DNA of 64,000 bases from Zingiber officinale (taxonomy: Eukaryota > Streptophyta > Magnoliopsida > Zingiberales > Zingiberaceae): positions 29,495,598 to 29,559,597 of the forward strand of contig NC_055986.1 of NCBI RefSeq assembly GCF_018446385.1. Reading direction: 5' to 3'. The translations under genes were made by a program, and so were the position numbers. Positions 83-51,858 of the stretch are shown in pieces. Under the pieces are notes generated by a model. The model searched no databases. It had not been told where the DNA came from and was given only the letters and a program-made list of their open reading frames with translations. The first letter of the stretch is position 1. Every line of letters starts with the position of its first letter.

Positions 83-153
83 CACATTGCTTGTGCGTGG
101 TGAGCTTCCTGCAGAAGTCATTATAAATTGGATCAAGGTTGCTTCATAATAAA

Positions 154-280
154 ACATGTAGCTGTGTGATAGGTACAAAGCGAATTATTCTTTCGCCTTT
201 TACTAAAGAATACCGTGTGCTTGTCACTAAAAATAGCATATATTAATTTTTGAAAGGGGTTTTTTTTACAAAGGAGCCCT
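154..280 (+). ncRNA. U5 snRNA gene copy 1 (class D), promoter half lost
   Basis: This is a U5 spliceosomal snRNA homologue. Its invariant loop CGCCTTTTACTAAAG is intact and is flanked by ATTCTTT/AAAGAAT stem arms. An Sm-site-like AATTTTTGA and a 3' hairpin ending in ggagccc follow. In the tri-snRNP, U5 loop 1 aligns the exons. A TATA box lies at 122-127. The USE has been cut: only CACATTG (83-89) remains after the LTR terminus, so transcription is doubtful. The mature 5' end is placed at acatg by the distance from the TATA box and by pairing of ATGC with the later GCAT, and is approximate. Confidence 0.85.
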
Positions 281-766
281 AACAAATTACAAGTTAAATT
301 TGTTCCTAACAATTTTTAAATTAATTACTTTAGTTGTAAGAGGTATAATGATTCATATATTTAATTTTCTCATAATTTTTAATAATTTAGAAAATTTGGT
401 CCTCTTTACATTGATTATTAGGATATATTTAGATAGTACACTGACTATTAGGATACATTTTGAAAGTAGTGTGGTGGATGACTAAGCATCATGAGTGTGG
501 TTCAAATATTGTGGTTGTACAATATACTTTGTGAGAGTTTTGATTGCATGAGTCAACATCATAGTGGCTTAAATATCGTGGTTGTATGATATACTCCGTG
601 AGAGTTTTGAACTCTTGTTGCACGAGTTTGTGTCATCTTTTACCATTACACTATATCCAAAGGTAAGAGAAGAGGGTTTACGGAGCCTAGCGCATAGGAA
701 ATGAAGGAGGATGCAAAGAGAGGCAAGGTTCAGCGTTCGAGGGGTGATTAGTATGGCTACTGTTTA

Positions 767-815
767 GTCCCACATTGCTTGTGCATGGTGAGCTTCCTAC
801 AGAGGACATTATAAA
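767..815 (+). promoter_or_regulatory. Plant snRNA promoter (USE + TATA) of U5 copy 2
   Basis: The USE is GTCCCACATTG at 767-777, a 10/11 match to the plant consensus RTCCCACATCG. TATAAA lies at 810-815, leaving 32 bp between them. Known plant snRNA genes use about 33 bp for RNA polymerase II and about 10 bp less for polymerase III, so a Pol II-type promoter is expected. That suits U5. Confidence 0.85.
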
Positions 816-841
816 TTAGTTCAGGGTTGCATCATAATAAA

Positions 842-969
842 ACATGCAGTTGTGTGATAAGAACAGAGAAAATTATTCTTTCGCCTTTTACTAAAGAATA
901 CCGTGTGCTTGTCACTAAAAATAGCATATATTAATTTTTGAAAGGGGTTTTTTTTTACAAAGGAGCCCT
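842..969 (+). ncRNA. U5 snRNA copy 2 (class A), altered lower stem
   Basis: The loop CGCCTTTTACTAAAG, the Sm site and the 3' hairpin are present, and a 3' box (CA, seven bases, AGTTAAA) follows within 20 bp. The segment before the loop reads gaacagagaaaattattc where other copies have gcacaaagcgaattattc. Several changes fall in an internal-loop and stem region, which weakens the case that this copy makes a functional RNA. The promoter at 767-815 is intact. Confidence 0.8.
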
Positions 970-2412
970 AACAAATTACAAGTTAAATTTGTTCTTAACA
1001 ATTTTTAAATTAATTATTTTAATTGTAAGAAATATAATGTTTCATACATCTAATTTTCTAATAATTTAGAAATTTTTGGTCCTCTTTACATTAATTATTA
1101 GGATATATTTAGATAGTACACAAACTATTAGGATATATTTAGAAAGTAGTGTGGTGGAAGACTAAGCATCATGAGTGTGGTTCAAATATCGTAGTTGTAC
1201 AATATACTCTGTGAGAGTTTTGATTGTATGAGTCAAAATAATGGAGGTTTAAATATCCTGGTTGTATGATATACTCTATGAGAGTTTTGAACTCTTGTTG
1301 CATTAGCCTGTCTCATCTTTTACCATTACACTGTATCCCAAGGGAAGAGTAGAGGGTTTTCGGAGCGTAGCACACAAGAAACGAAGGAGGTTGCTGTAAC
1401 AACCCAAATTTCCTCAATTCGAGTCCTAAAAGTAATTTAAAAATATTTAAAAATATTTAAAAATGCTATAGAAATATTCTAGGGATTTTTAGAAATTTTT
1501 ATAGTATTTTTATGCAATCTTTGGAGGTCGTTTGATATTTTTACTAAACGAAAGAAGTTTCGACAAAAAAATGTCCAAGCCGAGATTCGAACCCGTGACC
1601 TCCTGCTGAACCAATGTCTTAAGCGAATCCGGCTGACCAGGAAACCCAAGCGGGCGTGCTGATCAAATAGGGAAAGAAAATATATTTAAGTAGTAAGGAA
1701 ATCGAAAATAAATTGAAATAAAAAGGGCGCGTCTGAGGAATCGAACTCGCGACCTTTGACTCGGTTAAAACCCGGCTGACCAAGTGTTCACGCGGTCGTT
1801 GCTGAATAAGGAAAGAGCGACAAATATTTAAGGTATAGTATTTAATAAAAAAAACCCTAGTTACAAAAGAGGGCTTAATTTTTCCCGAGACCGAAAACCT
1901 TTCCTCTCCTCTCTCGCGACGGCGCTTCTCCTCTCGGGCGGAAACGAAGCCACACTTAGGGCACGTCTCCGGCGGCCGGAGAGCACCTTTCTCTGTGAGC
2001 TCTTCACACCTTCTCGGTCGTCTCGTCGAGGGGAGCACGCTGACATAGAGGAATCACTGAGAGCTCGAGTTCTCCTGAAACCCTAGTGCTTCCTTTCCGG
2101 CTGTAAGTCCAAGAAAACCTAAGGTAAGTCGCTACTCACCTGCAGTAGGATAGTTTCGGGTTCTTATTCCTTTTGTTTTTGAATTCTCTGTGAAGATTGT
2201 GGGTTGGGTTTGCTGCCGTGAGGTTCAAGGAAGAACATGAATGGTACAGTTTAAGCATGCAAGCGGTTTACCTCAAGCTTTGTAGCTGGATTTCGGATTT
2301 TGTTGTTCTAGGCAAAGAACATGAAGAACAATTAGGATTTTAAGTTCACAGTAGCAATTGTTTATAGTAGCAACTTTTTCTCTGGTTCCCTTGCCGTGGC
2401 ACATAGCAATCA

Positions 2413-4248
2413 TGTTAGTTAGAGCACTAGAGTCAATCATTTGATGATTGTATTATGGACTTGTTGTATCATATTCTTATATAAATAAAGGCATGTGTTT
2501 TGGTTATTATACTTACTTGTATTGGTGCCAAATAAACTAAGTATAATAGCGCCCTTGAGTAGAAGGTTCTCACCTATATCAATCGGTTAGTTGAACCGAT
2601 AGTGAGATGATATAGGGAACACTACTCTTAATCATTCCTAGTCGAGTATTAACATTCAGGGACAATGTTAATGCAATAAGACTAGCATGTAGGTCAACTC
2701 GATGACTTGATCTCACAAGTCATGGATATAGAGATATCAAGTTGACACATGTATATGCATTGTAGAATGTATACTGAATGACCCACCATGAGAAAGTATC
2801 ATGGATCGTTATATGAGTGTCATATACTTTCTCATGTGGCTATTAGTATGACTACTAGTCCTTGGACCTGAAGTCACCATGGATCCCTACATAAAGAGTT
2901 ATGTACTTTGGTTTCGTCAAACGTCACCCGTAACTGGGTGGACTATAAAGGCGATTACTGGGTATGTAACGAATTATGCAGAGGGATGTGAGTGATGTAG
3001 ATGTGATCTATCCCTCCTATATGACGGGAGCGACATCGATATTCTTGATAGAGTGAGACCATGAAGTGCATGGCCATGCCCAAATGAGTCAATATAAGAT
3101 ATTGAGCTCATTTAATTTAGTGAGTCTACTTGGAGATCAAGATTTAGATTGGTCAGAGGATGACACGGTCTATGCCTCACATTGATCAATCTAGATGTCT
3201 AGAATAGAAGGACACTTGTCATATATTGTGAAGAGTCACAAATAGTAGTCACAAGGTGATGTTGGATCTCAACATTCTTGTAACTTGGGTAGTAATGATG
3301 TGTTGCTAGATACCGCTCATTACTTATGCTCCTAAATGGGTTTAGGGGCATTGCCAACGTTACAAGAACCTATAGAGTCACACACTAAGGATAATTAGAT
3401 GGAGATTAGGTTTATATGATGAACCAAGAGGATTAGATTCATTTGATGAATCAAATTGGATTAAGAGTAATCCTAATTAGGTTAATTGAGTTAGACTTAA
3501 GTTGATTCGTGTGTTCAATGAGTCTAATTTAGATTATGACTCATTGAATCAATTTAATTAAATGAATTAGATTCATTATATTAAATTGGCTTGAATTAAA
3601 TGGTTGGATTAGATCAACCATGAGAGAGATTAAGTCAAGTTTGACTTGACTTGAGAGGAAGAGGAAGAGTCAAGTTTGACTTGACTTTATGCCACATCAT
3701 TTGTGACTTGGCATTAAGTGGCCAATGATGATGTGCCACATCATCATGTTTAGCACATGTGTGTGCCACCTAATGGGGGTTACAAATTTACTTTCAATTA
3801 AATGTGGCCCTCCACATTTAATGAAAAAGGAGTTACACTCCATGAAGGTGGCCGGCCACTTTTGATTGTGAATGGAATTCAATTTTATTCAAGGCTCATT
3901 TACATCTTCTTCTTCCTAGAGCTCTCTCTTCTTTCTCTCCCTCTCCTCTCTTGGCCGAACACCCTAGGTGCTAGCACACCTTTGTTTTGTCCTCTCCACC
4001 TAATTTTGTTCGTGTGGATACGCATAGAGAGTTGTCTACCTTGACAACTTGAGATCCGGCACCTTGGACGAGCGGGATTCGTGAAAGGCACGCATCAAGG
4101 GTAAAACTCGTACTCTAATGTAGATCTAGATTTTATAAACTCGTACTCGTAAGTTTTAGAAAGTTTTATTCTTCGCACGGATCCGGTGGGGGGTTTCGGG
4201 TTTCCACGACGTGTAAAAGCGATTTTTCGCGGCCCGAAAAATCCAACA
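2413..4248 (+). mobile_element. Solo LTR nested in TE1's 5' LTR
   Basis: The sequence begins TGTTAGTTAGAG and ends CCAACA, with perfect 5-bp target duplications aatca at 2408-2412 and 4249-4253. The uninterrupted 3' LTR of TE1 reads straight through (catagcaatcacccttttaa at about 11420), which proves both edges. There is no PBS, coding region or second LTR, so this is a solo LTR of about 1.84 kb. A 5'-truncated relative lies at 49979-51504. The TGTTAG start and non-gypsy internal sequence suggest a copia-type family, but the superfamily is not proven. Confidence 0.93.
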
Positions 4249-4896
4249 AATCACCCTTTTAATAGCATGTGCTTAACAGAAATCTGCCAATGCATTTCTT
4301 AACAGAATAATTGATGTTTGGTTTGAGTTTATAGTGTAGTATTTCAGTTTGAATCATGAATGTAACATGCCTAAGGATCTCTATTGCCCTATAGAAGTAT
4401 AAGCTTTACATAGGTATCAAGCTTTACCTAAGTTTTAAATTCCAGCAGATTCAAGCATTCTATCATCTTTATGTAGCAATTTCTTTTATAGTAATAGCAT
4501 TCTTACCTTATGCGTTGCTTTACTGGAAACGAATCAGAATATGTAGACCTACTGAGTGCATGCTTTAGTATATCATGGGTTAACTTTTGATAGCAGCAGT
4601 GATTACCTCTTCCTTATGCTTTGCTTTGCTAGAAGTAATTTAGAAGGTGTAGGTTTGTTAAGTGTATGTCCTAGTATATTGCTATCTTTACATAGAAATT
4701 TCTGATAGTAGCAGCATCTTTTCCTCATGCTTTGCCTTGTTGGAAACAGCTAAGAAGTGTAGACCCATTAAGTGCAGATTTTTGCATTTTGAAGTAATAC
4801 AGATTTTTACCTTTTGTAGTAGTGCAGATTTTTGCATTTTGTAGCATTGCAGTTTATCTCCTTTAGCAGTGTAGATTCTTTGTTTCTTATTTTGAA

Positions 4897-5110
4897 GCAT
4901 GCTTAAAGAATTTAGATGCTTCCCTTTGTTTTAATTCTGACATAGCATGCTTAAGGAATTCAGATGTGGTTTCCTTTATTTAATTCTGTTGTAGCATACT
5001 TAAAGAAGTCAGATTCAGTTTTCCTTTGAATTATATCTGTTGTAGCATGCTTAAAGATGTTAGGTATGCTTTCCTTTGATTTATTCTATTGATATATGCT
5101 TAAAGAATCC
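4897..5110 (+). repeat. About 50-bp tandem subrepeat in TE1 5' LTR
   Basis: Five diverged units each begin with (a)GCATGCTTAAAG and continue with a TTTCCTTTG-type tract and TTCTGTTGTA. Unit starts fall near 4897, 4945, 4994, 5044 and 5095. The same block occurs in the 3' LTR at about 12070-12290, and a related block lies on the minus strand in the LTR at 53866-56863. The repeat is therefore an old feature of this LTR lineage. Confidence 0.75.
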
Positions 5111-6328
5111 TGTTGCTCTATAAAAAAAACTCTAGGATTTGCATGTAAGTAGAAAAAAAATAAGAGTTCTATTAAATCCTTAGAGGTTTAAGTAGTTATA
5201 AGAAAGAGAGACCAAGGTCTTAATAGGATCCCTAAGTTTAAGAATTGGGATCAGTAGCACACCAAGTGCTCAAACAAATGCCAAGGTGTTTTAATATAAG
5301 AATATTAAAAGATAACAAGTATTTTATTTTAAAGAAAGGCTAGTACCCGACTTTCGAGGTTGTCGTTAAATAAATTCAGGTGACCAATTCCGAGGTCTTG
5401 GCCCTGGTAAGACCGAGGTCTTTACCCTCATAGAACTGGTGGCTCGCTACCCCAGTCTCTATTAGGGAGCATGCTTTGGTACTACGCCTGGGCCCAAGAA
5501 GAAAGTTGATTATTATTTTGAAGTATTAAAGTATAAGTTTTGAAATAAATGAAACAAGCTTCACTTATGTTTAGAGTCAGCAAGTTTAGCTTCTTTTAAT
5601 TCGAAGCATGCAATATTAGTTGTATTTGTTTCCTGAGTAGTTATTTAGCATGATTAGCTTTATCTTCCAGCATGCAGTTTTTATTCTTGTATGTCACGAG
5701 TATGCTAATTTTATTGCTTTGCTATTAGTTGGGCATGAGTAATCTTTATTGCTATTAGATTAACATGAGTAGCTATATATGCTTTATTTTAGAGCATTCA
5801 ATTTCTAGTTTCTTCTTGTATACATGCACATTCGTGTTTTTGTGAGTTAGACAGCGCTTACTAAGCATTCACTTATAGTTTGCATTTGTTCTTACTACAG
5901 ATACAGGAAAGGAAAAGTTTTAGCAAAGGAATGCGACAAGGAGGTGTTCGATGATGTGTGATGCTTGGACTATGGAGAGATCTGGGGATTTGCCAAGAAT
6001 TTATTAAGACTATTTTCATTAAATTGTTAAAAGAATTTAGAACTTGTACATGCTATTCTATGGATCGTTTTATCGTGCTTTGCGAGAGTTGATTATTTTG
6101 GTTATATATGAACTGCGTGGTTGTTTGATATATGTTCCAGCCGCCTGTGGCTGAAGTATACTATGTATGTATCTCATTGTATGGTCACCGGTATAGGGGA
6201 GATGCTGCCGAAATTTGTCGGTAGAGACTTATCGTAGTTTCGATCATACCGGTTAAGTAGAGTTAGTAGTTAAGTAACTGTCATCCTTAGAAAGTAGTAG
6301 TAGTAGTAAGAAGGGTGGTCGTTACAGT

Positions 6329-6340
6329 TGGTATCAGAGC
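6329..6340 (+). other. Primer-binding site of TE1 (initiator tRNA-Met)
   Basis: TGGTATCAGAGC lies 2 nt after the LTR end. It is the standard plant initiator-methionine tRNA PBS used by Ty3/gypsy elements to prime minus-strand DNA synthesis. Confidence 0.92.
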
Positions 6341-6556
6341 AGTTCCCATTCTCCAGCATCACACATCAGCACCAACCTTGTCGTCTTCAAGTAAGAATGT
6401 ATTTATACTTTCTTTTATGCTTTTCCTTTAGTGCTTGCAGTATAGAGAAATGTTTAGAAGTACCTGCTCATATGTGTTTAAAGTCAAGAATCATGCTTAA
6501 GTAAGATATATCTAGAAAGTATAGTGATGATTTCAAGTTTTTCCCTACATGACGAG

Positions 6557-7421
6557 ATGTCAAAAAGAGGGCGTTCTCGTACCACTCGTACTGAGAATCG
6601 AGCACGGGAGAACGAAGAGCCCAGAACAACTGAACCTAATCTCTCTGAAGTTGTTGTTCAACTCCAGAGACAAGCAGCAGAGTAGCAACAAGTGATCGTC
6701 AACATGATGGCGAATCGGCAGCCAGTCCCTCTCACCCCTCCAACTATCAATGTGGAGACTCCAGTGGTGACTGAGGTTCCACTAGCCGCCCTGGAAGTCC
6801 CCACAGTACCTAGAAGACAAGAAGCATACCTGATACAGTGGCTGAAACTGAAGCCAGAAAACTTCTCAGGCACGACTGAGACCTGGGATACCCAGGCTTG
6901 GTTCAAGTAATTAGAGGGCACGATGGAGCTTCTTGACTGGCCAGAAGTCGAGAAGGTCAAGTGTGCCTCTTTCTGCCTATCAGGAAATGCTCGTATGTGG
7001 TGGGAGAGAGAGAGTTAAGTGCAAGAGAGTAGTCAATCAGATGAGCTGGATTGACTCTGAGACAGAGTTTCACAAAGAATTCTTCCGCCAATGGATCACC
7101 AATAAGCCCTATGAAGAGTTTATAAAATTCAGACAAGGTGACCTGTCAGTAGAAGAAGCAGTTAAAAGATTCAATAGGCTAGCTCGTCTCTATCTAGAGC
7201 TAGTAAGTATGGAGAAGGTACGAGTCAGACTGATGCTCAGGATGCTGAGACCAGTGATAGCACTTAATGTGAGTAGTGGAACTCACCAGCCCCAGACTGG
7301 CGAGGAGCTGGTTAGCAGAGCATTAGTCGCTGAGCACTATCTGAACAACATCAAGGCACAACAAACGCAACTCAAGCCAATCAAGATAGAGGGCAAGACA
7401 GCAGGGAGTCAGAAACCCTAG
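6557..7421 (+). pseudogene. gag: TE1 gag pseudogene (capsid part)
   Basis: Gag forms the virus-like particle. The start is placed at the ATG at 6557, which opens a basic Arg/Thr-rich N-terminus of the kind seen in Tekay Gag. The TE2 gag starts at the matching place (40171). The frame is broken by TAG at 6683-6685 and TAA at 6908-6910, and then shifts near a gagaga run at about 7005-7015. The remaining piece (6933-7421) carries the capsid-type region with the EFFRQ, EFIKFRQG and AVKRFNRLARL phrases. The CCHC zinc knuckle that should follow is missing (see the junction near 7440). Confidence 0.85.
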
Positions 7422-7439
7422 GCAATTAAGCAGAACAGA

Positions 7440-10384
7440 AGGACAAAAAGGACCCAAGCAGGAAGAAGTTCGGATAGTCTGCGAGTATCCAGAGGTATTT
7501 CCAGAAGGTATTTCCAGAAGAGCTACCTGGACTACCTCCCAATAGAGAAGTGGAGTTTGAAGTTGAATTGGTTCTTGGTACTAGTCCAATTTCAAAAGCA
7601 CCGTACCGAATGTCTCCAGCAGAGTTGAAAGAGTTACAAGAACAACTTCAGGAGCTGCTTGACAAAGGCTTCATCCGCCCTAGTCATTCACCATGGAGAG
7701 CTCCTGTGTTGTTTGTCAAGAAGAAGGATGGATCTATGCGGATGTGCATAGATTATAGGGCGCTGAACAAAGTGACAATCAAAAACAAGTACCCACTGCC
7801 CAGAATCGACGACTTATTTGATCAATTGAAAGGGGCAACAGTGTTCTCCAAGATAGACCTGCGCTCTGGGTACCATTAGCTGAAAGTGAAAGAAAGTGAT
7901 ATACCCAGAACAGTTTCCAGGACCAGATATGGACACTACAAATTTATAGTCATGCCATTTGGTGTGTCTAATGCACCTGCAGTCTTCATGGACTTAATGA
8001 ACAGAGTGTTCAGAGAATACCTTGACAAATTTGTTATCGTGTTCATCGACGACATTTTAGTCTGTTCCAGAACCCCAGAGGAGCATGACACGCACTTGAG
8101 AATAGTCCTGCGGACCCTACAGTAGAAACAACTTTATGCCAAATTCTCGAAGTGCGAGTTCTGGTTAAATCAGGTGGCATTTCTATGTCACATTATTTCT
8201 AAAGAAGGCATCCAAGTGGATCCTGCGAAAATAGAAGCGGTAGTCAACAACTGGAGTAGATCCAAGAATGCTAGGGAGATCAGAAGTTTCCTTGGTTTAG
8301 CTGGGTACTACAAGAAATTTATGGAGGACTTTTCCAGGATAGCTTCCCCACTAACGATCCTAACTAGGAAGAACAAGAGGTTTGAATGGTCAGACAAATA
8401 TGAGTAGAGTTTCCAAGCATTGAAGAAGAGATTAACCAGTGTTCCTATTCTGATAGTTCCAGAAAGTGACAAGAGTTTTGACATCTACAGTGATGCTTCC
8501 AAGATGGGCCTAGGAGCTGTACTCATGCAAGAAGGAAAAGTTATAGCTTATGCTTCCAGACAACTCAAAGATTATGAGAAGAACTACCCCACTCATGATC
8601 TCGAGCTGGCAGCTGTGGTCTTTGCACTGAAACTCTGGCGACGCTACTTGTATGGAGTCCAGTGCAGAATTTTCACTGACCATCAGAGTTTAAAGTATTT
8701 CTTCACCCAGAAAGACTTAAACATGAGACAACGCAGGTGGCTAGAGTTGGTCAAAGACTATGACTGTGAAATCTTCTACCACCCAGGCAAAGCTAACAAA
8801 GTGGCAGATGCACTAAGCAGAAAATCCAGTGCATTGCTGATGTCTTTGTCATCATTAGTCCTGCCACTGCAGAAGGAGTTATCAGATTTTGGAATCGAAA
8901 TTATTGAAGGGCAACTCTCTGCATTGACCTTAGAGTCTACCTTGCTTGAGGATATACAGAGAAAGCAGAGTGAAGATCCAGACATCCAGAAGATCAAGCA
9001 AGGGATACAGAAAGAAGAAGATATAGAGTTTCAAGTATCAAACAGTGGAGTTCTTTATCAGGGGAATTGCCTTTGTGTCCCCAACGATGAGGAATTAAGA
9101 AGGAAGATTTTAGAGGAAGCTCATAGTACACCCTACTCCATGCATCCTGGTTCTACCAAGATGTACCAAGACGTGAAACAGAGGTTCTGGTGGTCTGGAC
9201 TCAAAAGAGATGTAGCTAATTATGTCAGTACCTACCTGACATGTCAGAGAGTCAAAGCAGAGCACTAGAGACCAGGAGGAGTTCTACAACCCCTTCCAAT
9301 ACCAGAGTGGAAGTGGGAAGACATATCCATGGACTTTATAACAGGTCTTCCGAGAACCACGAATGAATATGACGTGATATGGGTAATAGTGCACCGATTG
9401 ACCAAATCTGCTCATTTTCTAGCCATCAAGGTGTCCCACTCTATAGAGTAGTTGGCACAGCTGTATGTTAAGGAGGTGATCAGACTTCATGAAGTTCCTA
9501 AATCTATTGTTTCTGATAGAGATGGACGTTTCACCTCTCACTTTTGGGAGTGTGTTCAGAATGCACTAGGCACCAAACTCAAGTTCAGCACAGCCTTCCA
9601 TCCTCAGACTGATGGACAGACAGAGCGAGTAAATCAGATCCTAGAAGATATGCTCAGAGCTTGTGCGCTAGATTTCAAGGGAAGTTGGTACAAGTATATG
9701 TGCTTAGCTTAATTTGCCTACAACAATAGTTATCATGCTACCATCAAGATGTCATCATATGAGGCGTTGTATGGCAGAAAGTGCAGATCACCCATGTGCT
9801 GGCAAGAAGCAAGTGAAAGAAAAGAAATGGAAGTGGAGCTGGGCATTCAGACAGAGCTGATAGATGAGACTACTCAGGCTATCCAGAAGATTAGACAGAG
9901 AATTGAGACTTCATAGAGCGGACAGAAGAGTTATGCTGACACACATCGTAGGCCACTTGAGTTCCAAGTAGGGGATTCAGTTTTTCTCAAAGTCGCTCCT
10001 ATGAAGGGAGTGATGAGATTTGGCAAGAAGGGAAAATTAAGTCCCCGCTATGTAGGACCTTACCTGATCACAGAAAGGATTGGGAAAGTAGCTTACAAGT
10101 TGGATTTACCACAGGACATGTCAGCAATACATAACGTATTTCATGTCTCCATGCTAAAAAAGTGTCTCCACGACCCTATCCAAGTGATTCAGCCTCAGTC
10201 TGTGCAGATCCAGGAGGATCTTAGCTATGAGAGCAGACCTACACAGATAATGGACAGAGCAGTTAAGAGACTAAGGAATAAAGAAGTGCCACTAGTGAAG
10301 GTCATCTGGCAGAATTAGAAGCACGAGGAAGTTAATTGGGAGCGTGAGGACAGTATGAGAAAGAAATATCCAGAGTTATTCTAA
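7440..10384 (+). pseudogene. pol: TE1 pol pseudogene (RT-RNase H-integrase-chromodomain)
   Basis: From about 7510 the whole of pol is in one frame, broken only by stop codons: TAG at 7877, 8123, 8405, 9266, 9449, 9914 and 10316, and TAA at 9710. The natural stop is TAA at 10382-10384. Visible parts in order are RT ([15 protein letters not shown] near 8050), RNase H ([10 protein letters not shown] near 8480), the integrase zinc-binding region (HPGSTK near 9140), the integrase core (SDRDGRF near 9510; QTDGQTERVN near 9610) and a chromodomain-like tail ending PELF. Protease is absent because DNA was lost around 7440, and a 13-nt duplication (aggtatttccaga) nearby adds a frame shift. Seven of the eight stops replace glutamine codons. 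Confidence 0.92.
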
Positions 10385-10405
10385 GTTCGAGGATGAACTT
10401 TTTAT

Positions 10406-10418
10406 AAGGTATGGGGAA
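10406..10418 (+). other. Polypurine tract of TE1
   Basis: AAGGTATGGGGAA lies directly before the 3' LTR, at the position where plus-strand DNA synthesis is primed. TE2 has the same sequence at 44691-44703, and TE3 has a shorter version on the minus strand. Confidence 0.8.
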
Positions 10419-10419
10419 T

Positions 10420-34500: not shown

Positions 34501-34503
34501 CTC

Positions 34504-39919: not shown

Positions 39920-39921
39920 GT

Positions 39922-39933: not shown

Positions 39934-40170
39934 AGGTCCATTTTCCTGCAACACACACACATCAGCATTTACCTTGCCGTCTTCAAGTAAGAAAGTATTT
40001 AAGTTCTTTCTTTAGTGCTTTCCTTTATTATTATTATTTGCAGTATGGATGGATTGTTTATAAGTGATTAAGTAAGATAAGAGGTTTTAGCTATTTCCTT
40101 TCTTAATATATAAATGTGTATGTTTAGAAAGGGTAGAGAAATTATCAAATTTTCTTATTTGTTTTACTAG

Positions 40171-41252: not shown

Positions 41253-43535
41253 CAATGCCGAGTATTCTCCCTTACCAAAGAGGAAGCTGCTAGTGGTCAA
41301 GTAGTTATTTTTCAGCATATAGCTACTGCACTATTTGATACTGGGGCGACCCATTCTTTTGTATCCATACCTTTTGCCAAAGAATTACAGGTACCTACAG
41401 AAAGCATGAATTCCAAGTTCCTGACAACCCTACCTTCTGGGGAAGTCATGGAATCTAGTCAGTGGCTTCGGTCTATACCAGTCAGAATTTCAGACCGAGA
41501 GCTATGTGTTAATCTGGTAGTCCTCGCTATGCAGGATTTCGATATCATTTTAGGTATGGATTTCCTCAGCAAGTACAGTGCTTCAGTCGACTGCCGCAGA
41601 AGAAAAGTGGTCTTTAGTCCAGAAGGTGAATCATCCTTTGAATTTACCGGAGTACCAAAGAGGAAGACCCAGAAATTTCTCTCTTCCCTCACAGCTCACC
41701 AGATGCTAGCTAAAGGGTGTGCTGGTTTTCTTGCATTCATTGTGAGTACAGAAGAAGAAGAAAGACCTAAGCAGGAGGAAGTTCGGGTAGTCTGTGAGTA
41801 TCCAGAGATATTCCTAGAAGAGCTACCTGGACTACCTCCCAACAGAGAAGTGGAGTTTGAGATTGAACTGGTTCCTGGTACCGGTCCAATTTCAAAAGCT
41901 CCATACCGCATGTCTTCAGCAGAGCTAAAAGAGTTACAAGAGAAACTTCAGGAGCTACTTGACAAAGGCTTCATCCGTCCTAGTCACTCACCTTGGGGAG
42001 CTCCTGTGTTGTTTGTCAAGAAGAAGGATGGATCTATGCGGATGTGCATAGATTATAGAGCTCTGAATCAAGTGACCATCAAGAACAGGTACCCACTGCC
42101 CAGGATCGATGATTTATTTGATCAATTGAAAGGGGCAACAGTGTTCTCCAAGATAGATCTGCGCTCTGGGTACCATCAGTTAAAAGTGAAGGAGAGTGAT
42201 ATACCCAGAACTGCTTTCAGGACCAGATATGGACACTATGAATTCGTGGTCATGCCTTTTGGTGTGACTAATGCACCTGCAGTCTTTATGGACTTGATGA
42301 ATAGAGTGTTCAGTGAATACCTTGACAAGTTTGTCATTGTGTTCATCGACGACATTCTAGTCTATTCCAGAACTTCAGAGGAGCATGACACGCACTTGAG
42401 AATAGTTCTGCAGACCCTTCAACAAAAGCAACTCTATGCTAAATTCTCAAAGTGCGAGTTCTGGTTGGAGCAGGTGGCATTTCTAGGTCACATTGTTTCA
42501 AAAGAAGGCATTCAGGTAGATCCAGCCAAAGTAGAAGCGGTCAGCAACTGGAAGAGACCCAAGAATGCCAGGGAGATCAGAAGCTTCCTTGGTTTAGCTG
42601 GGTACTACAGGAAATTTGTGGAGGACTTTTCCAGGATAGCCTCTCCCCTTACAGCCCTCACCAGGAAGGACAAGAAGTTTGAATGGTCAGATAAATGTGA
42701 GCAGAGTTTTCAAGAACTCAAGAGGAGACTGACCAGTGCTCCTATACTGGCTGTTCCAGAGGGTGACAAGAGTTTTGACATCTACAGTGATGCTTCCAAG
42801 ATGGGCTTAGGAGCTGTACTCATGCAGGAAGGAAAAGTTATAGCTTATGCTTCAAGACAACTCAAAAACTACGAGAAGAACTATCCCACTCATGATCTAG
42901 AGCTGGCAGCTGTAGTCTTTGCACTGAAACTCTGGCGACACTACTTGTATGGAGTCCAGTGCAGAATCTTCACAGACCATCAGAGTCTTAAGTACTTCTT
43001 CACTCAGAAGGACTTAAACATGAGACAGCGCAGGTGGTTAGAGTTGGTCAAAGATTATGATTGTGAAATCCTCTACCACCCAGGTAAAGCTAATAAAGTG
43101 GCAGCTGCACTAAGCAGAAAGTCCAGTGCATCCTTGATGTCCTTATCATCATTAGCCCTGCCACTACAGAAGGAGTTGTCAGATTTCGGACTTGAAATTA
43201 TTTATGGGCAACTTTCTGCATTGACCCTAGAGTCAACCTTGCTTGAGGATATACAGAAAAAGAAAAGTGAAGATCCAGATATCCAAAAGATCAAGCAAGG
43301 AATACAAGAAGAAGGAAATTCAGAATTTCGAGTATCAGACAGTGGAATTCTTTATCAGGGAAATCGCCTTTGTGTTCCCAATGATGAAGAGCTGAGAAAG
43401 AGAATTTTAGAAGATGCCCATAGTACGCCATACTCTATGCATCCTGGTTCTACCAAGATGTACCAAGACATGAAACAGAAATTCTGGTGGTCTGGACTCA
43501 AAAGGGATGTAGCTAAATATGTCAGCACCGCCTGA
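41253..43535 (+). CDS. pol: TE2 pol: protease, reverse transcriptase, RNase H, integrase N-terminus
   Basis: The frame is open for 760 codons. The first ATG is at 41406, but the reading starts earlier because the protease active site [10 protein letters not shown] (residue 29 counted from 41253) lies upstream of it. Tekay elements make Pol as part of a Gag-Pol polyprotein. RT has FVKKKDGS and FIDDILV (near residue 364). RNase H begins [10 protein letters not shown] (residue 509) and includes [10 protein letters not shown] and FTDHQSLKY. The integrase zinc-binding region starts at HPGSTK (residue 730). The frame stops at TGA 43533-43535, where TE1 has ..[12 protein letters not shown]. The stop results from one of three small deletions at 43520-43560 that together total 12 bp. 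Confidence 0.93.
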
Positions 43536-44669
43536 CATGTCGAGGGTCAAAGCAGAACACCAGGAGTTTTACAACCTCTTCCAATACCAGAGTGGAAGTG
43601 GGAAGACATATCCATGGATTTCATAACAGGTCTCCCAAGAACCACAAATGGATATGATGCGATATGGGTGATAGTGGACAGATTGACCAAGTCTGCTCAT
43701 TTTCTAGCCATCAAAGTGTCTCACTCTATAGAGCAGTTAGCACAGCTGTATGTAAAAGAGGTGATCAGACTTCATGGAGTTCCCAAATCTATTATTTCTG
43801 ATAGAGATGGGCGCTTCACCTCTCACTTTTGGGAGTGTGTACAGACTGCACTAGGCACCAAGCTCAAGTTCAGCACAGCCTTCCATCCTCAGACTGATGG
43901 ACAGACAGAGCGTGTAAATCAGATCCTAGAAGATATGCTGAGGGCTTGTGCACTGGATTTCAAAGGAAGTTGGTGTAAGTACCTATGCTTAGCTGAATTT
44001 GCCTACAACAACAGTTATCAAGCCACCATCAGGATGGCACCATATGAGGCGTTGTATGGTAGAAAGTGCAGATCACCTATATGCTGGCAAGAAGCTGGAG
44101 AAAGAAGAGAAATGGAAGTGGAGCTGGGTATTCAGACTGAGATGATAGAAGAAACCACTCAGGTTATTCAGAAGATCAGACAGAGGATTGAGACTGCCCA
44201 GAGTAGACAGAAAAGTTATGCTGACACACGCCGTAGGCCACTGGAATTCCAAGTAGGAGATTCGATCTTTCTCAAGGTTGCTCCTATGAAGGGAGTGATG
44301 AGATTTGGCAAGAAGGGCAAATTAAGTCCTCGCTATGTAGGACCATATCTGATTTCAGAAAGGATTGGTAAGGTAGCTTATAAGCTGGACTTACCACAGG
44401 ACATGTCAACAGTACACAATGTGTTTCATGTCTCTATGTTAAAGAAGTGTCTTCATGATCCTAGCCAAGTGATTGAACCTCAGTCAGTGCAGATCCAAGA
44501 GGATCTTAGTTATGAGAGTAGATCTACACAGATAGTGGACAGAGCAGTCAAGAGACTAAGAAATAAAGAAGTGCCACTAGTGAAGGTCGTCTGGCAGAAC
44601 CAGAAGCACGAGGAAGTCACTTTGGAACAAGAGGACAGCATGAGGCAAAAATATCCAGAACTATTCTAA
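43536..44669 (+). CDS. pol: TE2 pol: integrase core and chromodomain-like tail
   Basis: The same frame resumes because the three local deletions add up to a multiple of three. Taking the ATG at 43614 as residue 1, the integrase catalytic residues are D2 (MDFITGLP), D63 (SDRDGRF) and E99 (GQTERVN). This is the D-x35-E spacing of retroviral-type integrases. The C-terminal domain carries GKLSPRYVGPY and VFHVSMLKK. The final 30 residues (VPLVKVVW to PELF) are a chromodomain-like tail, which in chromoviruses directs insertion into heterochromatin. The natural stop is TAA after PELF. Confidence 0.92.
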   Translation, partial: HVEGQSRTPGVLQPLPIPEWKWEDISMDFITGLPRTTNGYDAIWVIVDRLTKSAHFLAIKVSHSIEQLAQLYVKEVIRLHGVPKSIISDRDGRFTSHFWECVQTALGTKLKFSTAFHPQTDGQTERVNQILEDMLRACALDFKGSWCKYLCLAEFAYNNSYQATIRMAPYEALYGRKCRSPICWQEAGERREMEVELGIQTEMIEETTQVIQKIRQRIETAQSRQKSYADTRRRPLEFQVGDSIFLKVAPMKGVMRFGKKGKLSPRYVGPYLISERIGKVAYKLDLPQDMSTVHNVFHVSMLKKCLHDPSQVIEPQSVQIQEDLSYESRSTQIVDRAVKRLRNKEVPLVKVVWQNQKHEEVTLEQEDSMRQKYPELF

Positions 44670-44690
44670 GTTCGAGGACGAACTTTTTAT

Positions 44691-44703
44691 AAGGTATGGG
44701 GAA
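44691..44703 (+). other. Polypurine tract of TE2
   Basis: AAGGTATGGGGAA lies just before the 3' LTR and is identical to the TE1 tract. Confidence 0.82.
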
Positions 44704-44704
44704 T

Positions 44705-47609
44705 TGTAATGACCCAATTTTCCCTATTTTGAGTTCTGAATATCTTTAAAAATATTGGAAAATGCTTTTAAAATATTCTAGAGATTTTTAGGAATTTTTA
44801 GAGTATTTTTATGCAATTTTTTTAGTCCGTTTGGTATTTTTACCGAGTGGAGGAAGTTTGAAAATAAAAAAAAATAATAATAATAATAAGTTGAAGAAAC
44901 TGGGTTTCGAACCCACAGCCTCGGGCCCAAGCAGAACCAGCCCGACCAATCGAGCTAAGCTCGTTTTGTTAACCTTATATGGAGTGAATAATATTTAAGG
45001 TATAGTATTTAATAAAATAACCCTAGGTTATAAAAAGAGGTTAAGTTAAGAGAGGAAAACCTAAAATTTTCTCTCGAAATTTCTCTTCTCTTCTCTTCTC
45101 ACGCGACGGCGCCGACTCCTGCTCGGGCGAAAACGCAGCACCTCCTAGGGCTCCGTTTTCGGCGGCCGGCGAGGATTTCTTTTCGGGGGTTGTTCACAGA
45201 TTCGTGGTCTCCTCGTCAAGGAGAACACGCGGATAGGAAGGGATCGCCGAGACCTTCACTTCATCCAAACCCTAGAGCACTTCCCCTTCGGTTGTAAGTT
45301 CAAGAACCCAAGGTGAGTTGCTTCTCACCTGCAGTAGGAGTAGTTCCGATTCGTTTATGTTTTCTGGTTGTTTGAGTTTCCTGTGAAGCATGCTAGGGTT
45401 GCTGTTTTACTGCCGTGTACTCTAAGAAGTTAGACAAAATCCTTTTGTGAAGTTTGATCTGTAAAGAATTCTTCGATTAGACTTAACAAAGGCTTAATAC
45501 AAGATTTTTGATCTCTAATCTATGAAGAACCAACTATAGTTTCTGTGGTTTCGGGTTGGTTTATAATGGTTGCTGCCATAATTGTTAAATCCGAATATGC
45601 TAGGTGGATTATGGGATCATTTTATGGTTGAGTAAGTCAGATTTGAGTTTGTGCCATGCAATGGGTGTAGATCAACCTTATTTGAGAGAGTCCTGTTGGT
45701 TTCTTTTAATGGCTTAATTTATTTCCTTAAGTTTAGAACCATGTTAGAACAGTTTGAAGTTAGAAGAGTAGTTAAGGAAATATTTTGCAACGAGCTAGGT
45801 TTTGGTTCCTTATATGCTTAATGTGCATGATTAAAAGTATGATAACAGTAGCATTCTTTTAGTTGATAACTACATTAAAGCCTTAATCAGAATGCTCATG
45901 TTCCTTTACAAGTTTTATTAGTTTTGGCTTGGTTTTAATAAGCAATGAATATGAGATAGCTTGATTAAATTTTGAGCTTGTAGTTAGTTTTCTGTATTGC
46001 TGTTAGAAGTTTAAAAAAAAAAAAAAAAAAAAAGACCAAAGTCTTAATAGAATCCCTAATCTTTTTAAGAATTGGGATCAGTAGCATATCAAGTGCTCAA
46101 AGAAATGCCAAGGCATTTTATCAGAAGAAGTATTTAAAGTAAGATATAAAGAAAAGTATTTTATTTTAAAAAGGGCATGTACCGGACACAAGGTCCAAGG
46201 GATGGGCTCCAAGTTGCCCCTAGACATAAAGTCTAGAAGTGTCTTAATGGTTTTGGGATTAGCTACCTCAATTCTCATTAAGAAAGGCGCGCAAAGTGGT
46301 ACAATGCCGGGCCCAAGTAAAGTTGAGTATTATTTTAAAGTATAAAAGTATTAAATTTGGAAACAAATAGAACAAGTTTCTTTTATCTAAATTGAAAGAT
46401 TCTAACAAGATAAATTGTTGTTTCCTTTAGAGATGCATGATGTAGTTTCACTTCTATTTCATGTTGAGCATGTACCTCCTGTTTTCTTTTATGTATATGC
46501 ATTTCTTATCGGATTTTGTGAGTAGAAAGCACTCACTAAGCTTTTAGCTTATAGATGCTACTTTTCCTCCTACTGCAGATATGGATAAAAATAAAGGAAA
46601 GGCTAAAATGGCATAGAAGAAGGCGACAAGGAGACACTGGTGATGTGTGTGTGGATGGCGGTGATGGAAGATTTGGGGACCTTGCTTTTAAATTTCTGCA
46701 AGTTAAATTATTTAGGTTTCTTCTTAAATAACTAGGAGAATTAATAAAAAATTCAGATTCTTTATGCTCTCCCTGTTTTACTGTTTTGAAGTTGATTAAA
46801 TACGTTGGTTCTGTTGAGTACAATATGAATTGTTTGAGTTATAGGAAATTCGGTTTTGGTGCATTGCTTAAATCTGGAGTTTCAGATTGTTGCCGTGGAG
46901 TTTGGAAAATTCAGATCCTTTCATGTTGCTTAAAACTGTAAAGTTCTATATTATTGTAGCCTGAATTACATTGCTTAAGCTTGAGAACTATTTCGGCCGT
47001 GATACTTATCTGCTCTTGTGTTATCTGTTGCTGCTGGATGTTTGGTTTTTTAATTGCAAAGTAACTTTCTGTGAAAACTGATATGCCATGAGTTTGCTCA
47101 AGATGAGTAATAGCCATATATGCTAATCTGTTAATGGTTGTTAGATGTATGATTGGTAGAAGTACATGCAAAATGTTAACTGGTAGTTTACAAATTTATC
47201 ATGTGCAAGTTTGCTTAAATTCTTAATGTGAACAAATGATGGATTTCGTTTGCTGGGTTAACTAATTCAGTTTGCAAGTTTTAAATGCCTACACATTTGT
47301 GGCTATACATGTTAACTGGAATTCGTTTGCAAGTTAACTGAATTGGTTTACAGATCTATACATGCCTATAAGTGTTAAATGCTAAACACTGTCATGGTAA
47401 CATGTTAATACATTTTAGCATGATTGATAAGCTTGGTTGAGGGTAGTACTGAGATAATTAGAAGTGATAGCATGCTAAAAAAAAAAACAACAACAGATAT
47501 TATGACAAGTTTATTTTCTTTAAGTTAAGAGAAATTTCAGTTTAGTAGGAACGAGTAGTAGGTAACGGTCGTCATCAGAGTAGTAGTAGTAAGGAGGGCA
47601 TCCGTTACA
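44705..47609 (+). repeat. 3' LTR of TE2
   Basis: Starts TGTAATGACCC (one change from the 5' LTR) and ends CATCCGTTACA. The low number of differences from the 5' LTR is spread over 2.9 kb, and the poly-A tracts also differ in length (46013-46033; 47478-47487). The donor-like GTGAGT is near 45312 and the acceptor-like CTACTGCAG ends near 46578. Confidence 0.94.
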
Positions 47610-49264
47610 AAGTTGCCCCTAGACATAAGGTCTAGAAGTGTCTTAATGGTTTTGGGATTAGCTACCTCAATTCTCATTAAGAAAGGCGCGCAAAGTGGTA
47701 CAATGCCGGGCCCAAGTAAAGTTGAATATTATTTTAAAGTATAAAAGTATTAATTTGGAAACAAACAGAACAAGTTCTTTTATCTAAGTTGCAAATTCTA
47801 GCAAGTTAAATGGTTGTTTCCTTTAGAGATGCATGATGTAGTTCTATATTGCTATTTTCATGTTGAGCATGTACTCCCTGCTTTCTTTAATGCTTATGCA
47901 TTCCTTATCGGATTTTGTGAGTAGAAAGCACTTACTAAGCTTTTAGCTTATAGATACTACTTTTTCCTCCTACTGCAGATATAGATAAAAATAAAGGAAA
48001 AGCTAAAGTGGTGTAGAAGAAGGTGACAAGGAGTCGTTGATGGTGTGTGTGTGGTGGCTGTTATGGAAGTATGGGATCTTGCTAGAAGAGTTTGGAGATG
48101 TTGCTTGCTAGTGCTCGTTTGATTTTTGCCATAGTAGAACTATATTGCTATGTTAAAAATTGTTAGATACTAGTATGCTATATAAGTTTGCTTTAATGGA
48201 ACTGTCACATGATTTACTTCTGCTGTAGTGAAATTTGTTTTCAATTGCAATGAGTAGGATATATGAGTAGCTAGCGAATTCCTATGCTTAGTTTTCCTTT
48301 TGTTACTGCTGGAAATTTTAATCTGCTGTGAAATGCTAGAAATATTCTTATGCTCAGTACTTCCTTATAAATCTGCTGGAATGTTAAGTTGCTGGATTTA
48401 TTCGGATGTTAAATGCATATAGTTCGGCTTGTTAGGTAATGAATGAGTAGTAGTTTATATCACTTTCTCTTAATTACGATTTGGTTGTAGAATGAATAAC
48501 TACATTCTGTAACAAGGGATGTTAGGTAGGATTTCATGAATGCAAGTTAATAAAGGAAGTAGCAAACAGTAGAGATACTTAAGCTTCATTGCCTATATGT
48601 TACACTTGCTTGTGTTACACTTATTTGCATGTTTAAATAAGTAAGAAAAAAAAAAAACATCAGAGCAGTTTAAAGTTTTAGTTGATATGTGATATGTTTA
48701 AAACAAATAGATTAAAGCATTTCTAGTGTTAAAGTAGGTAGTACCAGTTATGTGTAGATAGTAGATTCAGTAGCGGTCACCCTTAGAGGAGTAGTAAGGA
48801 GGGTGGTCGTTACAGTCGGTGATGGTTTGACGGTAAGGAGGAAGGAGAGGACGGCTTGAAGAGGGCTTCACCACGGTGAGGCTTGTTGGAGGAGAAGACC
48901 TCCATCGGCAGTGAATTCGTGAGCGGCCGACGATCAGGCGAGGAAAGGTCGCTAGAGGGGGATCGGGAGAAAAATTTCGCATGAAGGAGGAGGAAATCGG
49001 GGAAAGAAAGGAAAGAATAGGGAATTAGGGATTAATTAAATACTTAGGTTTAATTTAATTAAACTCAAAGTTTTCTCTTTCATCAACTCCCACTTAAATG
49101 GTATTTCAAACAGGCCCCGCTTAGTACCACTGATTCATCCCCTCAAAACGAGCCATACAGACTCCATTTAAATACCAAAAAATTTATAAAAATTCCTAAA
49201 AAATTCAATAAGATTTTTCATCCAATAATATTTATTATTTAATTTTACGATATCTTACAACATT

Positions 49265-49978
49265 GTCTATTTGGAAATATTTAGAAAGTAGTGTGGTGGA
49301 TGACTAAGTATCATGAGTGTGGTTCAAATATCGGGGTTGTACAATATACTCTGTGAGAGTTTTGATTGCATGAGTCAACATCATGGTGGTTTAAATATCA
49401 TTGTTGTATGATATACTCTATGAGAGTTTTGAACTCTTATTGAATGAGTCTGTCTCATCTTTTACCATTGCGTTGTATCCCAAGGGAAGAGAAGAGGGTT
49501 TTTGGAGCCTAGCGCGCAGGAAATGAAGGAGGATGCAAAGAGAGGGAAGGTTTAGCGTTTGAGGGGTGATTAATTTGGCAACTGTTTAGTCCCACATTGC
49601 TTGTGCATGGTGAGCTTCCTACAGAGGACATTATAAATTGGTTCAGGGTTGCATCATAATAAAACATGCAGCTGTGTGATAAGCATAAAGCGAATTATTC
49701 TTTCACCTTTTTTTAAAGAATACCGTGTACTTTTCACTAAAAACATCATACATTAATTTTTGAAGAGCCCTGACAAATTGCAAGTTAAATTTTATCCTAA
49801 CAATTTTTAAATTAATTATTTAATTGTAAGAGTTATAATGTTTCATATATTTAATTTTATCTCATATTTTTTATTTTTTAATAAATTAGATATTTTTGTC
49901 CTATAGAAGTTTACACTAATTATTTGCATATATTTGGAAAATACACCGACTATTAGGATATATTTTGAAAGTATAGAT
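49265..49978 (+). repeat. U5 snRNA tandem array, segment 3
   Basis: The array resumes exactly after the acatt duplication with the spacer of unit 16, followed by a complete class B monomer start and U5 copy 17. It ends in the class B spacer phrase gaaagtatagat, where a truncated LTR begins. Confidence 0.88.
49664..49772 (+). pseudogene. U5 copy 17 (class B) pseudogene
   Basis: The loop is CACC, T-run, AAAG without TAC, and there is no 3' hairpin (gaagagccctgac), as in copies 3, 7, 9 and 12. The USE GTCCCACATTG (49589-49599) and TATAAA (49632-49637) are intact. Confidence 0.82.
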
Positions 49979-51504
49979 AGGTCAACTCGATGACTTGATC
50001 TCACAAGTCATGAATATTAGATATCAAGTTGACACAGGAGTATGCATTGGAGAATGTATACTGAATGACCCGCAATGAGAAAGTATCATGGATCATTATA
50101 TGAGTGTCATATACTTTCTCATGTGACTATTAGTATGACTATCAGTCCTTGGACCTGAAGTCACCATGGTTCCCTACATAAGAAGTTGCATACTTTGGCT
50201 TCGTCAAACGTCACCCGTAAATGGGTGGACTATAAAGATGACTACTGGGTATGCAACAAATTATGTGGAGGGATGTGAGTGATGTAGATGGGATCTATCC
50301 CTCCTATATGACGGGAGTGACATCATGATTTTTGATAGAGCGAGATCACTAAGTGCATGGCCATGCCCAAATAAGTCAATATAAGATATTGAGCTTATTT
50401 GATTAGGGTGAGTCTACTTGGAGTTCAAAACATAGATTGATTAGAGGATGACATGGTCTATGCCTCAATTTAATCAATCTAGATGTCAAGGATAGAAGGA
50501 CATTTTCATATATTGTGAGAGTCACAATTAGTAGTCACAAAGATGATGTTGGATCTCAACATTCTTGTAACTTGGGTAGTAATGATGTGTTGCTAGATAC
50601 CGCTCATTACTTATGTTTCTAAATGGGTTTAGGAGCATTGCCAACGTTACAAGAACCTATAGGGTCGCACACAAAGGGCAATTAGATGGAGATTTGGTCC
50701 ATATGATGGACCAAGAGGATTAGGTTCATGTGATGAACTAAATTGGATTAAGAGTAATCCAAATTAGACTAATTGAGTTGGACTCAATTTGATTCATGTG
50801 TTGAATGAGTCTAGTTTAGACTATGATTCATTGAGTCAATTTAAACCAATGAATTTAGATTCATTAAATTAAATTGATTTGAATCAAAGGTTAGATTTGA
50901 TCAACCATGGGAGATAAGAGGTCAAGTTTGACTTGACTTGAGAGGGAAGATGAAGGGTCAAGTTTGACTTGACCAAATACCACCTCATTTGTGACTTGGC
51001 ATGGGCCGACCAATGATGGTGTTCCACATCATTATGGCTACATCAATGTATGTCACCTCATGAGGGAGACCAAGATCCATGACTCTTGGTATTACATGGA
51101 GGTTTAAAACCTCTCAAGAGTGGTTGGCCACATTAAGTGAATTTAAGGGGTGTGAATTCAAGGCTTCATCTTCTTCCTCTCTTCTTCTTCTCTCCCGCTC
51201 CTCCATTGCCGAGCCACTCAAGGGTGCTAGCACATTCTAAGTGGTTCTCTCCACCTTTTTGTCCGTGTGGATACGTGTAGAGGAGTGTACACTTGACACT
51301 CTACGAGATCCGACAACCTTTTGGACGAGCGGGATAAGCGAAGGGCATCGCTACAAGGGTAACGCTCTTTTCATGTAGATCAAAGGTAGATCTAGTGTAG
51401 ACAAACATGTACATGAATTTTTATTTATCTTCACACGGATCCGTTGCTAGCTTCGAGGTTTTCGCAACGCAAAAAGCGGTTTTTACGGCTCGAAATTGCT
51501 AACA
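49979..51504 (+). mobile_element. 5'-truncated LTR, relative of the solo LTR at 2413
   Basis: The sequence matches the 2413-4248 LTR from its position of about 279 onward (aggtcaactcgatgacttg) to a 3' end GCTAACA. The TG start and roughly 278 bp are missing and no target duplication flanks it. On the left the array stops in a class B spacer, and on the right it resumes inside a U5 promoter region, just before the RNA start. A deletion or unequal exchange has removed the LTR start together with array DNA. Confidence 0.85.
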
Positions 51505-51858
51505 TGTTCATGCTTGCTTCATAATAAAACATGCTTTTTGATAGACACAAAGTGAATTATTCTTTTGTCTTTTACTAAAGAATACCATGTGCTTGCCACT
51601 AAAAATGGCATACATTAATTTTTGAAAGGACTCTTTTTACTAAGGAGCTCTAACAAATTGTATGTTAAATTTGTTCCTAATAATTTTAAGTTAATTATGT
51701 TAGTTGTAATCACTATAATGTCCCATATATTATTTAATTTTATTTATTTATTATTTTTATTATTATTATTATTTAATAATTTATATATTTTTGGTCTTAT
51801 AAAAGTTTACACTTATTATTAGGATATATTTGGAAAGTACATTGACTATTATGATAAT
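51505..51858 (+). repeat. U5 snRNA tandem array, segment 4 (right edge)
   Basis: A partial monomer runs from just before the RNA start to the spacer phrase tatttggaaagtacattgac. No further U5 sequence is visible to the right in this window. Confidence 0.82.
51539..51660 (+). pseudogene. U5 copy 18 (class C-like), promoter lost
   Basis: The body is U5-like with loop TTTGTCTTTTACTAAAG, so the GCC is changed to GTC, with Sm site AATTTTTGA and a weak 3' hairpin. The USE and TATA have been replaced by the truncated LTR. It is the most diverged copy, as is common at array edges. Confidence 0.8.

Follow-up and report, generated by a model that had tools for sequence, protein, structure and literature searches.

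A tandem array of U5 small nuclear RNA genes in Zingiber officinale organized as a higher-order repeat with a dead member

Bodies of U5 small nuclear RNA (snRNA) genes recur head to tail on contig NC_055986.1 (C1) of the 3.09-Gb Zingiber officinale assembly, which raises the question of whether such an array is a working gene locus or a satellite made of genes. The window, that is, the whole stretch of 64,000 nucleotides analysed (C1:29,495,598-29,559,597), had been described in an earlier note as an unusually large tandem cluster of 18 U5 genes and pseudogenes with RNA polymerase II (Pol II)-type snRNA promoters, lying among retrotransposons. Using the covariance model RF00020 with its gathering score of 40 bits as the threshold, we found 17 matches in the window at or above it (41.2 to 93.8 bits), all on the + strand, and the 18th body, at 13638 on the same strand, scored 30.8 bits; all 18 stood where the note had placed them. 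A default Rfam scan detects the array at once. A flank of 200 kb (C1:29.30-29.50 Mb), which overlaps the window by 4.4 kb and brings the total on C1 to 259.6 kb, yielded significant U5 matches as well, and the array continues into it. In all, at least 59 matches at or above threshold were recovered over 220 kb (29.327-29.547 Mb), made up of 31 and 13 from the flank scans (2 of these inside the window) and the 17 of the window; this is a lower bound because the flank was scanned in 10-kb pieces and matches cut at piece ends were possibly missed. The earlier description of a U5 gene and pseudogene cluster was correct but incomplete: to the 18 units have to be added the remaining matches on C1, a second array on the homologous contig C2, a four-unit order, a duplication of about 100 kb, and signs of decay in the array as a whole as opposed to mostly intact dispersed U5 genes.

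Directly adjoining units in the window were spaced 568 to 692 bp apart, in agreement with the unit of roughly 570-690 bp noted before, and the remaining steps measured 1017, 1861, 12790, and 27274 bp. The invariant loop CGCCTTTTACTAAAG was exact in 11 copies, the same number as previously counted; with up to three mismatches it was matched 18 times versus 2.6 expected, although three of these matches belong to 3′ hairpins and not to loops, and 0 of 100 shuffles reached 18. Sixteen of the 18 units carried the plant upstream sequence element (USE) with one mismatch or none (exact in 9); it was split at unit 160 and lacking at unit 51531. TATAAAT was exact in 14 units. In the 16 units with a USE, the gap to the TATA box was 31 to 32 bp, as had been proposed (about 32 bp), and for 15 of the 17 dispersed loci it was 32 to 33 bp; the TATA box lay 38 bp upstream of the U5 body, compared with 38 to 39 bp in 15/17 dispersed loci. 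In 13/18 units a 3′ box matched CA-N(3-10)-A(A/G)(G/C)TTAA, mostly as CA-N7-AGTTAA, a pattern looser than the CA-N7-AGTTAAA proposed before and slightly looser than the plant snRNA terminator consensus CAN3-10AGTNNAA (PMC545797). A USE with at most one mismatch, an exact TATA box, an exact loop, and AATTTTTG occurred together in 9/18 units. The earlier statement that most units have a complete promoter counts dead copies too, termed B below.

The promoters bear directly on the possibility that the units are U5 retrocopies or were spread by a transposon that had captured U5. Retrotransposons do lie between the units, yet USE and TATA precede 16/18 window units, and reverse-transcribed RNA would have neither. 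Moreover, the units run head to tail, array-type clusters were seen at one place each on C1 and C2, and the retroelements break units and do not carry them. On the strength of the promoters and of the single cluster place per contig we rejected this origin, which we regard as scarcely credible.

Using one A and one B unit as BLAST queries on C1, we located 69 unit places, 52 of them full-length (39 A and 13 B) and 17 partial; partial units were excluded from the rate counts, save one pair (29382283/29495757) in the comparison across the segmental duplication. Type A is a full U5, with stem, loop, Sm site, and 3′ hairpin, and its three subtypes A1 to A3 are U5-like units whose promoter layout is that of the dispersed U5 genes. 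Among the full-length units, loop I GCCUUUUAC was present in 30/39 A and 0/13 B, the Sm site AATTTTTG in 36/39 A and 8/13 B, and an exact USE, TATA box, loop, and Sm site together with AAGTTAAA in 15/39 A. All 13 B units lacked GCCTTTTAC, replaced by a T run in 12 and by CTTTTAT in one, and in all 13 two main-stem pairs were broken and the 3′ hairpin region was deleted, while the USE was exact in 8/13 and the TATA box in 9/13. B is thus broken in every full-length copy. Main-stem pairing was 96.3% in A, a level that none of 2000 shuffles attained (relatedness among units can inflate this figure), versus 85.9% in B, a value that 1218/2000 shuffles equalled or exceeded. Compared with shuffled sequences, three of four A copies folded into clearly stabler structures (z, -2.8 to -3.8), and three B copies were no stabler (z, 0.07 to 0.89). 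Euglena gracilis is reported to have multi-copy U5 genes, convergent U3-U5 pairs, and a U5 without the 3′ stem-loop (PMC2784804), which implies that losing the hairpin alone need not kill a U5; in the B units, by contrast, the loop and stem pairs are gone as well.

A tree of the 52 full C1 units, 11 C2 units, and 17 dispersed loci, with the root set by us on one dispersed locus, grouped all 63 array units apart from the 17 dispersed loci (support 0.60 under the chosen root), and four subtypes, A1, A2, A3, and B, were read from it. On C1, 29 of 38 neighbour steps shorter than 800 bp followed the order B-A1-A2-A3-B, compared with a permutation mean of 9.7 and with 0/20000 permutations as high; the steps out of order were A2-B (three), B-A2 (three), A1-A1 (two), and A1-A3 (one). 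When block 2 was taken alone, so that the duplication was not counted twice, 15/19 steps were in order (0/20000 permutations), and in the C2 pieces 8/9 were (7/20000 permutations as high), including one stretch that reads B A1 A2 A3 B A1 A2 A3. The array is a tetrameric higher-order repeat with a unit of about 2.6 kb, a satellite with diverged monomers in fixed order, and a plain monomeric satellite is ruled out by the order of the four subtypes. Alpha satellite, too, repeats diverged monomers in a fixed multi-monomer order; the principle is alike, and here every monomer is a promoter-bearing RNA gene. Spacer p-distances were 7 to 11% within subtypes and 14 to 17% between them, values at which near-identical units of the kind that concerted evolution maintains in human RNU2 were not found.

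Self-comparison further revealed a block of roughly 100 kb present twice, at about 29.313-29.437 Mb and at about 29.449-29.549 Mb, with matching stretches about 94 to 98.5% identical and with offsets that shift along the block, which indicates insertions after the duplication. The paralogue, in the other block, of the long terminal repeat (LTR) retrotransposon insertion at unit 160 has CACAT on both sides. These observations also bear on whether the array could be an assembly artefact of collapsed or mis-joined repeats. Long repeats are hard to assemble, and copy numbers on C1 and C2 are unequal (43 versus 18 sites in the search described below); against an artefact, the units are individually distinct, the same subtype order appears on two contigs, and retrotransposon insertions are either common to both blocks or private to one, and we consider it highly improbable.

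A different reading of the fixed order is that the B-A1-A2-A3 tetramer itself is a transcribed functional unit, which would deliver three U5 isoforms in fixed proportion together with a loop-dead, hairpin-less B RNA. Such an RNA is conceivable because B keeps the USE, the TATA box, and in most copies the Sm site, and it could compete for Sm assembly or nucleate an snRNA-gene nuclear body. We regard this reading as improbable.

The whole genome was searched with a 30-base U5 core allowing at most two mismatches, a pattern that the B type escapes. This search returned 96 sites versus 0 for a reversed-pattern control, and a hand count from the listing assigned 43 to the C1 array, 18 to the second array, on C2 (34.32-34.45 Mb), and 35 to places elsewhere. 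The dispersed sites are single or in small groups, on C1/C2 (at 2-3 Mb and at 29.0/33.7 Mb), C3/C4, C9/C10, C17/C18, C5, and C19. One pair of dispersed type in opposite orientation lies at C1:28,996,426 (L026), some 330 kb ahead of the array on that contig, and C2 has a comparable pair at 33,669,090; L026 carries GATAAAA in place of the TATAAA of other genes. U5 sites recur across the contig pairs C1/C2, C3/C4, C9/C10, and C17/C18. Three locus pairs on C3/C4 and C9/C10 were 94 to 96% identical over 1.8 to 3.1 kb, the C17/C18 pairs, of unsure allelism, were 86 to 90% identical, and the C2 array pieces reached about 92.7% at best with C1. Paired sites at these identities suggest an allotetraploid or else a phased diploid of very high heterozygosity, and C1 and C2 may be haplotypes or homoeologues.

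The array and the dispersed genes differ markedly in the state of their cores. Among core sites with at most two mismatches, the core was exact in 26/61 array sites versus 30/35 dispersed sites (P = 3.5 × 10−5), and 26 of the 46 array core mismatches fell on the 4 CpG bases of the 30, with 23 of these being C>T or G>A. In alignment, the array USE is GTCCCACATTG, ending in ATTG, whereas the dispersed USE ends in ATCG in 14/17 and in ATCT in 3/17 loci, indicating that the CpG of the USE has turned into TpG. By eye, CpGs were lost relative to the dispersed genes in the USE (ATCG to ATTG) and the outer stem, three were kept in or beside the core, and two G-C stem pairs had become A-U. The observed/expected CpG ratio was lowest in the array core (0.52), intermediate in the window (0.63), and highest in ten dispersed loci (0.79), with TG/CA at 1.21 in the array core versus 1.05 in those ten loci. 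Such a pattern of CpG loss is commonly caused by methylation, and judging from this bias the array is probably methylated. Copy-specific bases tell the array apart from the dispersed genes (CATGCAG..GTGTGATA versus CACGCAGCTGCGTGG).

Rates of change were then compared between the core, here the upper stem and loop (27 sites), and other parts of the unit. The core/spacer distance was 0.15 to 0.25 between A subtypes but 0.71 to 0.91 between A and B, and within subtypes the ratio was 0.18 for A2 and 0.35 for A3. The majority sequences of A1 to A3 differed at 0/27 core columns versus 37/120 and 34/131 spacer columns. By parsimony on the A tree, 11 changes at 27 core sites stood against 85 at 57 other body sites (P = 3.2 × 10−6) and 113 at 109 promoter-region sites (P = 0.0015). 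The corresponding figures for the tree of B units were 8/27 versus 27/57 (P = 0.28) and 45/110 (P = 0.49). The Sm site was likewise slow in A (3 changes at 10 sites; P = 0.0008 versus other body sites) and not in B, and the remaining A body evolves at about the spacer rate. These substitution patterns indicate that the U5 core was constrained while A1 to A3 diverged, and no constraint is detectable in B. A core held constant in this way implies that A1 to A3 would have made working RNA. An array that had always been dead would not show such slow change in the A core and Sm site, nor would 0/27 differing core columns be expected where subtype spacers differ by 14 to 17%.

More recent change was read from pairs of units separated by the segmental duplication and matched by us by position (18 A and 5 B). 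In the A pairs, 42/2116 body sites differed versus 86/5433 spacer sites (P = 0.23); a body slower than its spacer, the sign of active maintenance at present, was thus not found in A units. By these counts, A bodies appear to have changed as fast as spacers since the duplication.

Three explanations of the state of the array were weighed. If the array were a working dosage locus, a main source of U5 as human RNU2 is for U2, with dead copies tolerated, one would understand the nine window copies that combine a USE (at most one mismatch), TATA box, loop, and Sm site, the TATA-body distance shared with the dispersed genes, the stem pairing preserved in A, and the past constraint on the core. Bodies no slower than spacers since the duplication, the shortage of exact cores relative to dispersed sites, and copies left unhomogenised between subtypes all speak against such a locus, and we judge it unlikely. 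A completely dead satellite from which no copy is transcribed would account for the neutral recent rate, the CpG loss, the decayed cores, and the LTR retrotransposons throughout the array, and only a long-standing death conflicts with the slow A core; we consider it rather doubtful, though less so than the dosage locus. We favour, as the likely explanation, a decaying and probably methylated snRNA-gene satellite, with the dispersed loci supplying most U5 and some array copies maybe still transcribed; as it allows that transcription, its probability overlaps with those of its rivals.

Several results weigh against the explanation that we favour. The 61 sites and 46 mismatches are not independent, as paralogues share mutations. 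The core/spacer ratio within A1 (0.65) resembled that of B within itself (0.66), and neither the USE nor the TATA box changed significantly more slowly than the sequence around it, in A or in B. The B core rate was mildly, though not significantly, low (ratio, 0.63), so that base composition may explain some of the slowness in A. Since the duplication, the core of the 18 A pairs differed at 6/486 sites (0.012 per site) versus 0.016 in the spacer, a comparison of modest power, and in the 5 B pairs bodies differed less than spacers (3/470 versus 39/1803; P = 0.03). This last difference runs contrary to expectation, is not accounted for by the explanation we favour, and may have arisen by chance, as several tests were made. 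One A2 copy was not significantly stable upon folding (z, -1.1), and the canonical upper stem appeared in the minimum-energy fold of only 1/4 A copies. Finally, both silencing and transcription are predictions from the anatomy, order, rates, and CpG bias observed.

We propose that a U5 gene, complete with Pol II-type promoter and 3′ box, would have been duplicated head to tail in an ancestor, and that four diverged tandem copies became the amplification unit B-A1-A2-A3 of about 2.6 kb, presumably via unequal crossing-over, with B already dead at amplification and carried along. LTR retrotransposons would then have split the array into islands, and a stretch of about 100 kb of array and retrotransposons would have been duplicated again on C1. 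As a class, the present array would evolve near-neutrally and lose CpG, as expected of methylated repeat DNA, while the dispersed loci retain the core and probably provide most U5. Variant U5 could still come from a minority of array copies, those in which promoter, loop, Sm site, and hairpin are all intact.

Comparison with known systems relied on the open-access literature, by titles, the beginnings of abstracts, and some passages of the papers cited. As those passages describe it, the human RNU2 (U2) macrosatellite is a head-to-tail Pol II snRNA gene array of 6 to 82 copies per allele, with a near-perfect unit of 6.1 kb under concerted evolution (PMC3795722). The present array joins such tandem snRNA arrays, being likewise a head-to-tail array of Pol II snRNA genes. 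Unlike RNU2, it has units of about 0.6 kb and a higher-order repeat made up of four diverged subtypes, of which one is dead; it shows much decay without homogenisation, and dispersed U5 genes exist besides. The Arabidopsis ASRG survey lists 14 U5 genes, all judged active, and reports small snRNA clusters: seven U1-U4, one U2-U5, and single tandem duplications at U2-10 and at U5.1 (PMC545797). Those U5 genes share the USE, TATA, and terminator grammar and the presence of several U5 genes per genome with the loci studied here, but their clusters are small (PMC545797). In morabine grasshoppers, U1, U2, U5, and U6 are among the tandem multigene families found from reads, and a fixed order of live and dead subtypes, as in the present array, is not described in the portions consulted (PMC7754599). 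A Salicaceae centromere paper does no more than mention snRNA annotation. Within this open-access literature we met neither a plant tandem snRNA array of such size nor a higher-order satellite whose monomers are entire snRNA genes, one of them permanently dead.

The locus gives the impression of an essential gene family on its way to becoming satellite DNA. If so, it would be a natural experiment in which selection on U5, the decay of CpG sites, and the silencing of Pol II snRNA promoters can be told apart. It has an internal control, because A and B lie together behind the same kind of promoter and only A could have given a working RNA. In practical terms, such arrays can inflate the number of snRNA genes counted in a plant genome. 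The features of the window are summarized in Table 1.

Table 1. U5 units, repeats, and retroelements of the array in window coordinates
Feature	Position	Strand	Evidence
U5 unit, full-length type; loop, Sm, TATA (122) intact; USE cut by LTR retrotransposon, remnant CACATTG at 83-89	160..278	+	RF00020, 85.5 bits
U5 unit A3; USE 767, TATA 810, loop, Sm, 3′ hairpin, 3′ box	848..967	+	76.8 bits
Nested LTR-retrotransposon block within array; repeat pairs 1395-2412/10420-11430 (94.5%) and 4249-6329/11426-13503 (96.3%)	1395..13503	.	Repeat identity
Ty3/gypsy RNaseH-integrase fragment in nested block	8420-9268		Pfam RT_RNaseH, Integrase_H2C2
B-type dead U5; T-run loop, damaged Sm, no 3′ hairpin; USE 1 mismatch, TATA exact	13638..13752	+	30.8 bits, below threshold
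Complete higher-order repeat B-A1-A2-A3, ~2.6 kb	13638..16237	+	Order, spacings, permutation test
U5 unit A1	14258..14375	+	84.9 bits
U5 unit A2	14894..15011	+	84.5 bits
U5 unit A3	15569..15687	+	91.1 bits
B-type dead U5; USE and TATA exact	16238..16360	+	41.2 bits
U5 unit A2; TATA mutated to TAGAAAT	16808..16924	+	84.5 bits
B-type dead U5; USE and TATA exact	17499..17620	+	41.8 bits
U5 unit A2	18067..18184	+	78.7 bits
U5 unit A3	18759..18877	+	81.2 bits
Second B-A1-A2-A3 round, four bodies	19432-21497	+	Order, spacings
B-type dead U5; TATA mutated to TCTAAAT	19432..19551	+	60.7 bits
U5 unit A1; mutated loop (CACC), Sm (AATTTTTT), and TATA (TGTAAAT)	20054..20171	+	84.5 bits
U5 unit A2	20689..20806	+	77.1 bits
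U5 unit A3, highest score in window	21379..21497	+	93.8 bits
U5 unit A3	22396..22513	+	87.9 bits
Ty3/gypsy LTR retrotransposon between array fragments; repeat pair 37010-39919/44704-47609 (98.1%)	37010..47609	+	Pfam RVT_1, RT_RNaseH, RVP_2, SH3_Tf2-1
B-type dead U5; USE and TATA exact	49670..49786	+	61.5 bits
Last U5 body of array; loop mutated (TTTTGTC); unrelated DNA replaces promoter, no USE or TATA	51531..51649	+	69.9 bits

The Ty3/gypsy element between the array fragments, whose repeats are 98.1% identical, encodes pol in two long open frames, 41406-43535 (709 amino acids) and 43614-44669 (351 amino acids), and the closest relative of the first was 75% identical among the 120 matches listed of 7978. 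Ages from repeat identity, at a rate of 1.3 × 10−8, were used for relative order alone, several pairs not being clean LTRs. Toward the end of the window, two copies of a repeat of about 196 bp occupy 57161-57550, and the overlapping segment 57472-57601 weakly resembles microRNA models on both strands, below cut-offs; the element at 57161-57601 is possibly palindromic and like a miniature inverted-repeat transposable element. A GC-rich 41-bp tandem unit occurs in seven copies at 60868-61154 within AT-rich surroundings, and just past the right end of the array a 149-bp tandem repeat of 2.3 copies (87% matches) spans 53206-53545.

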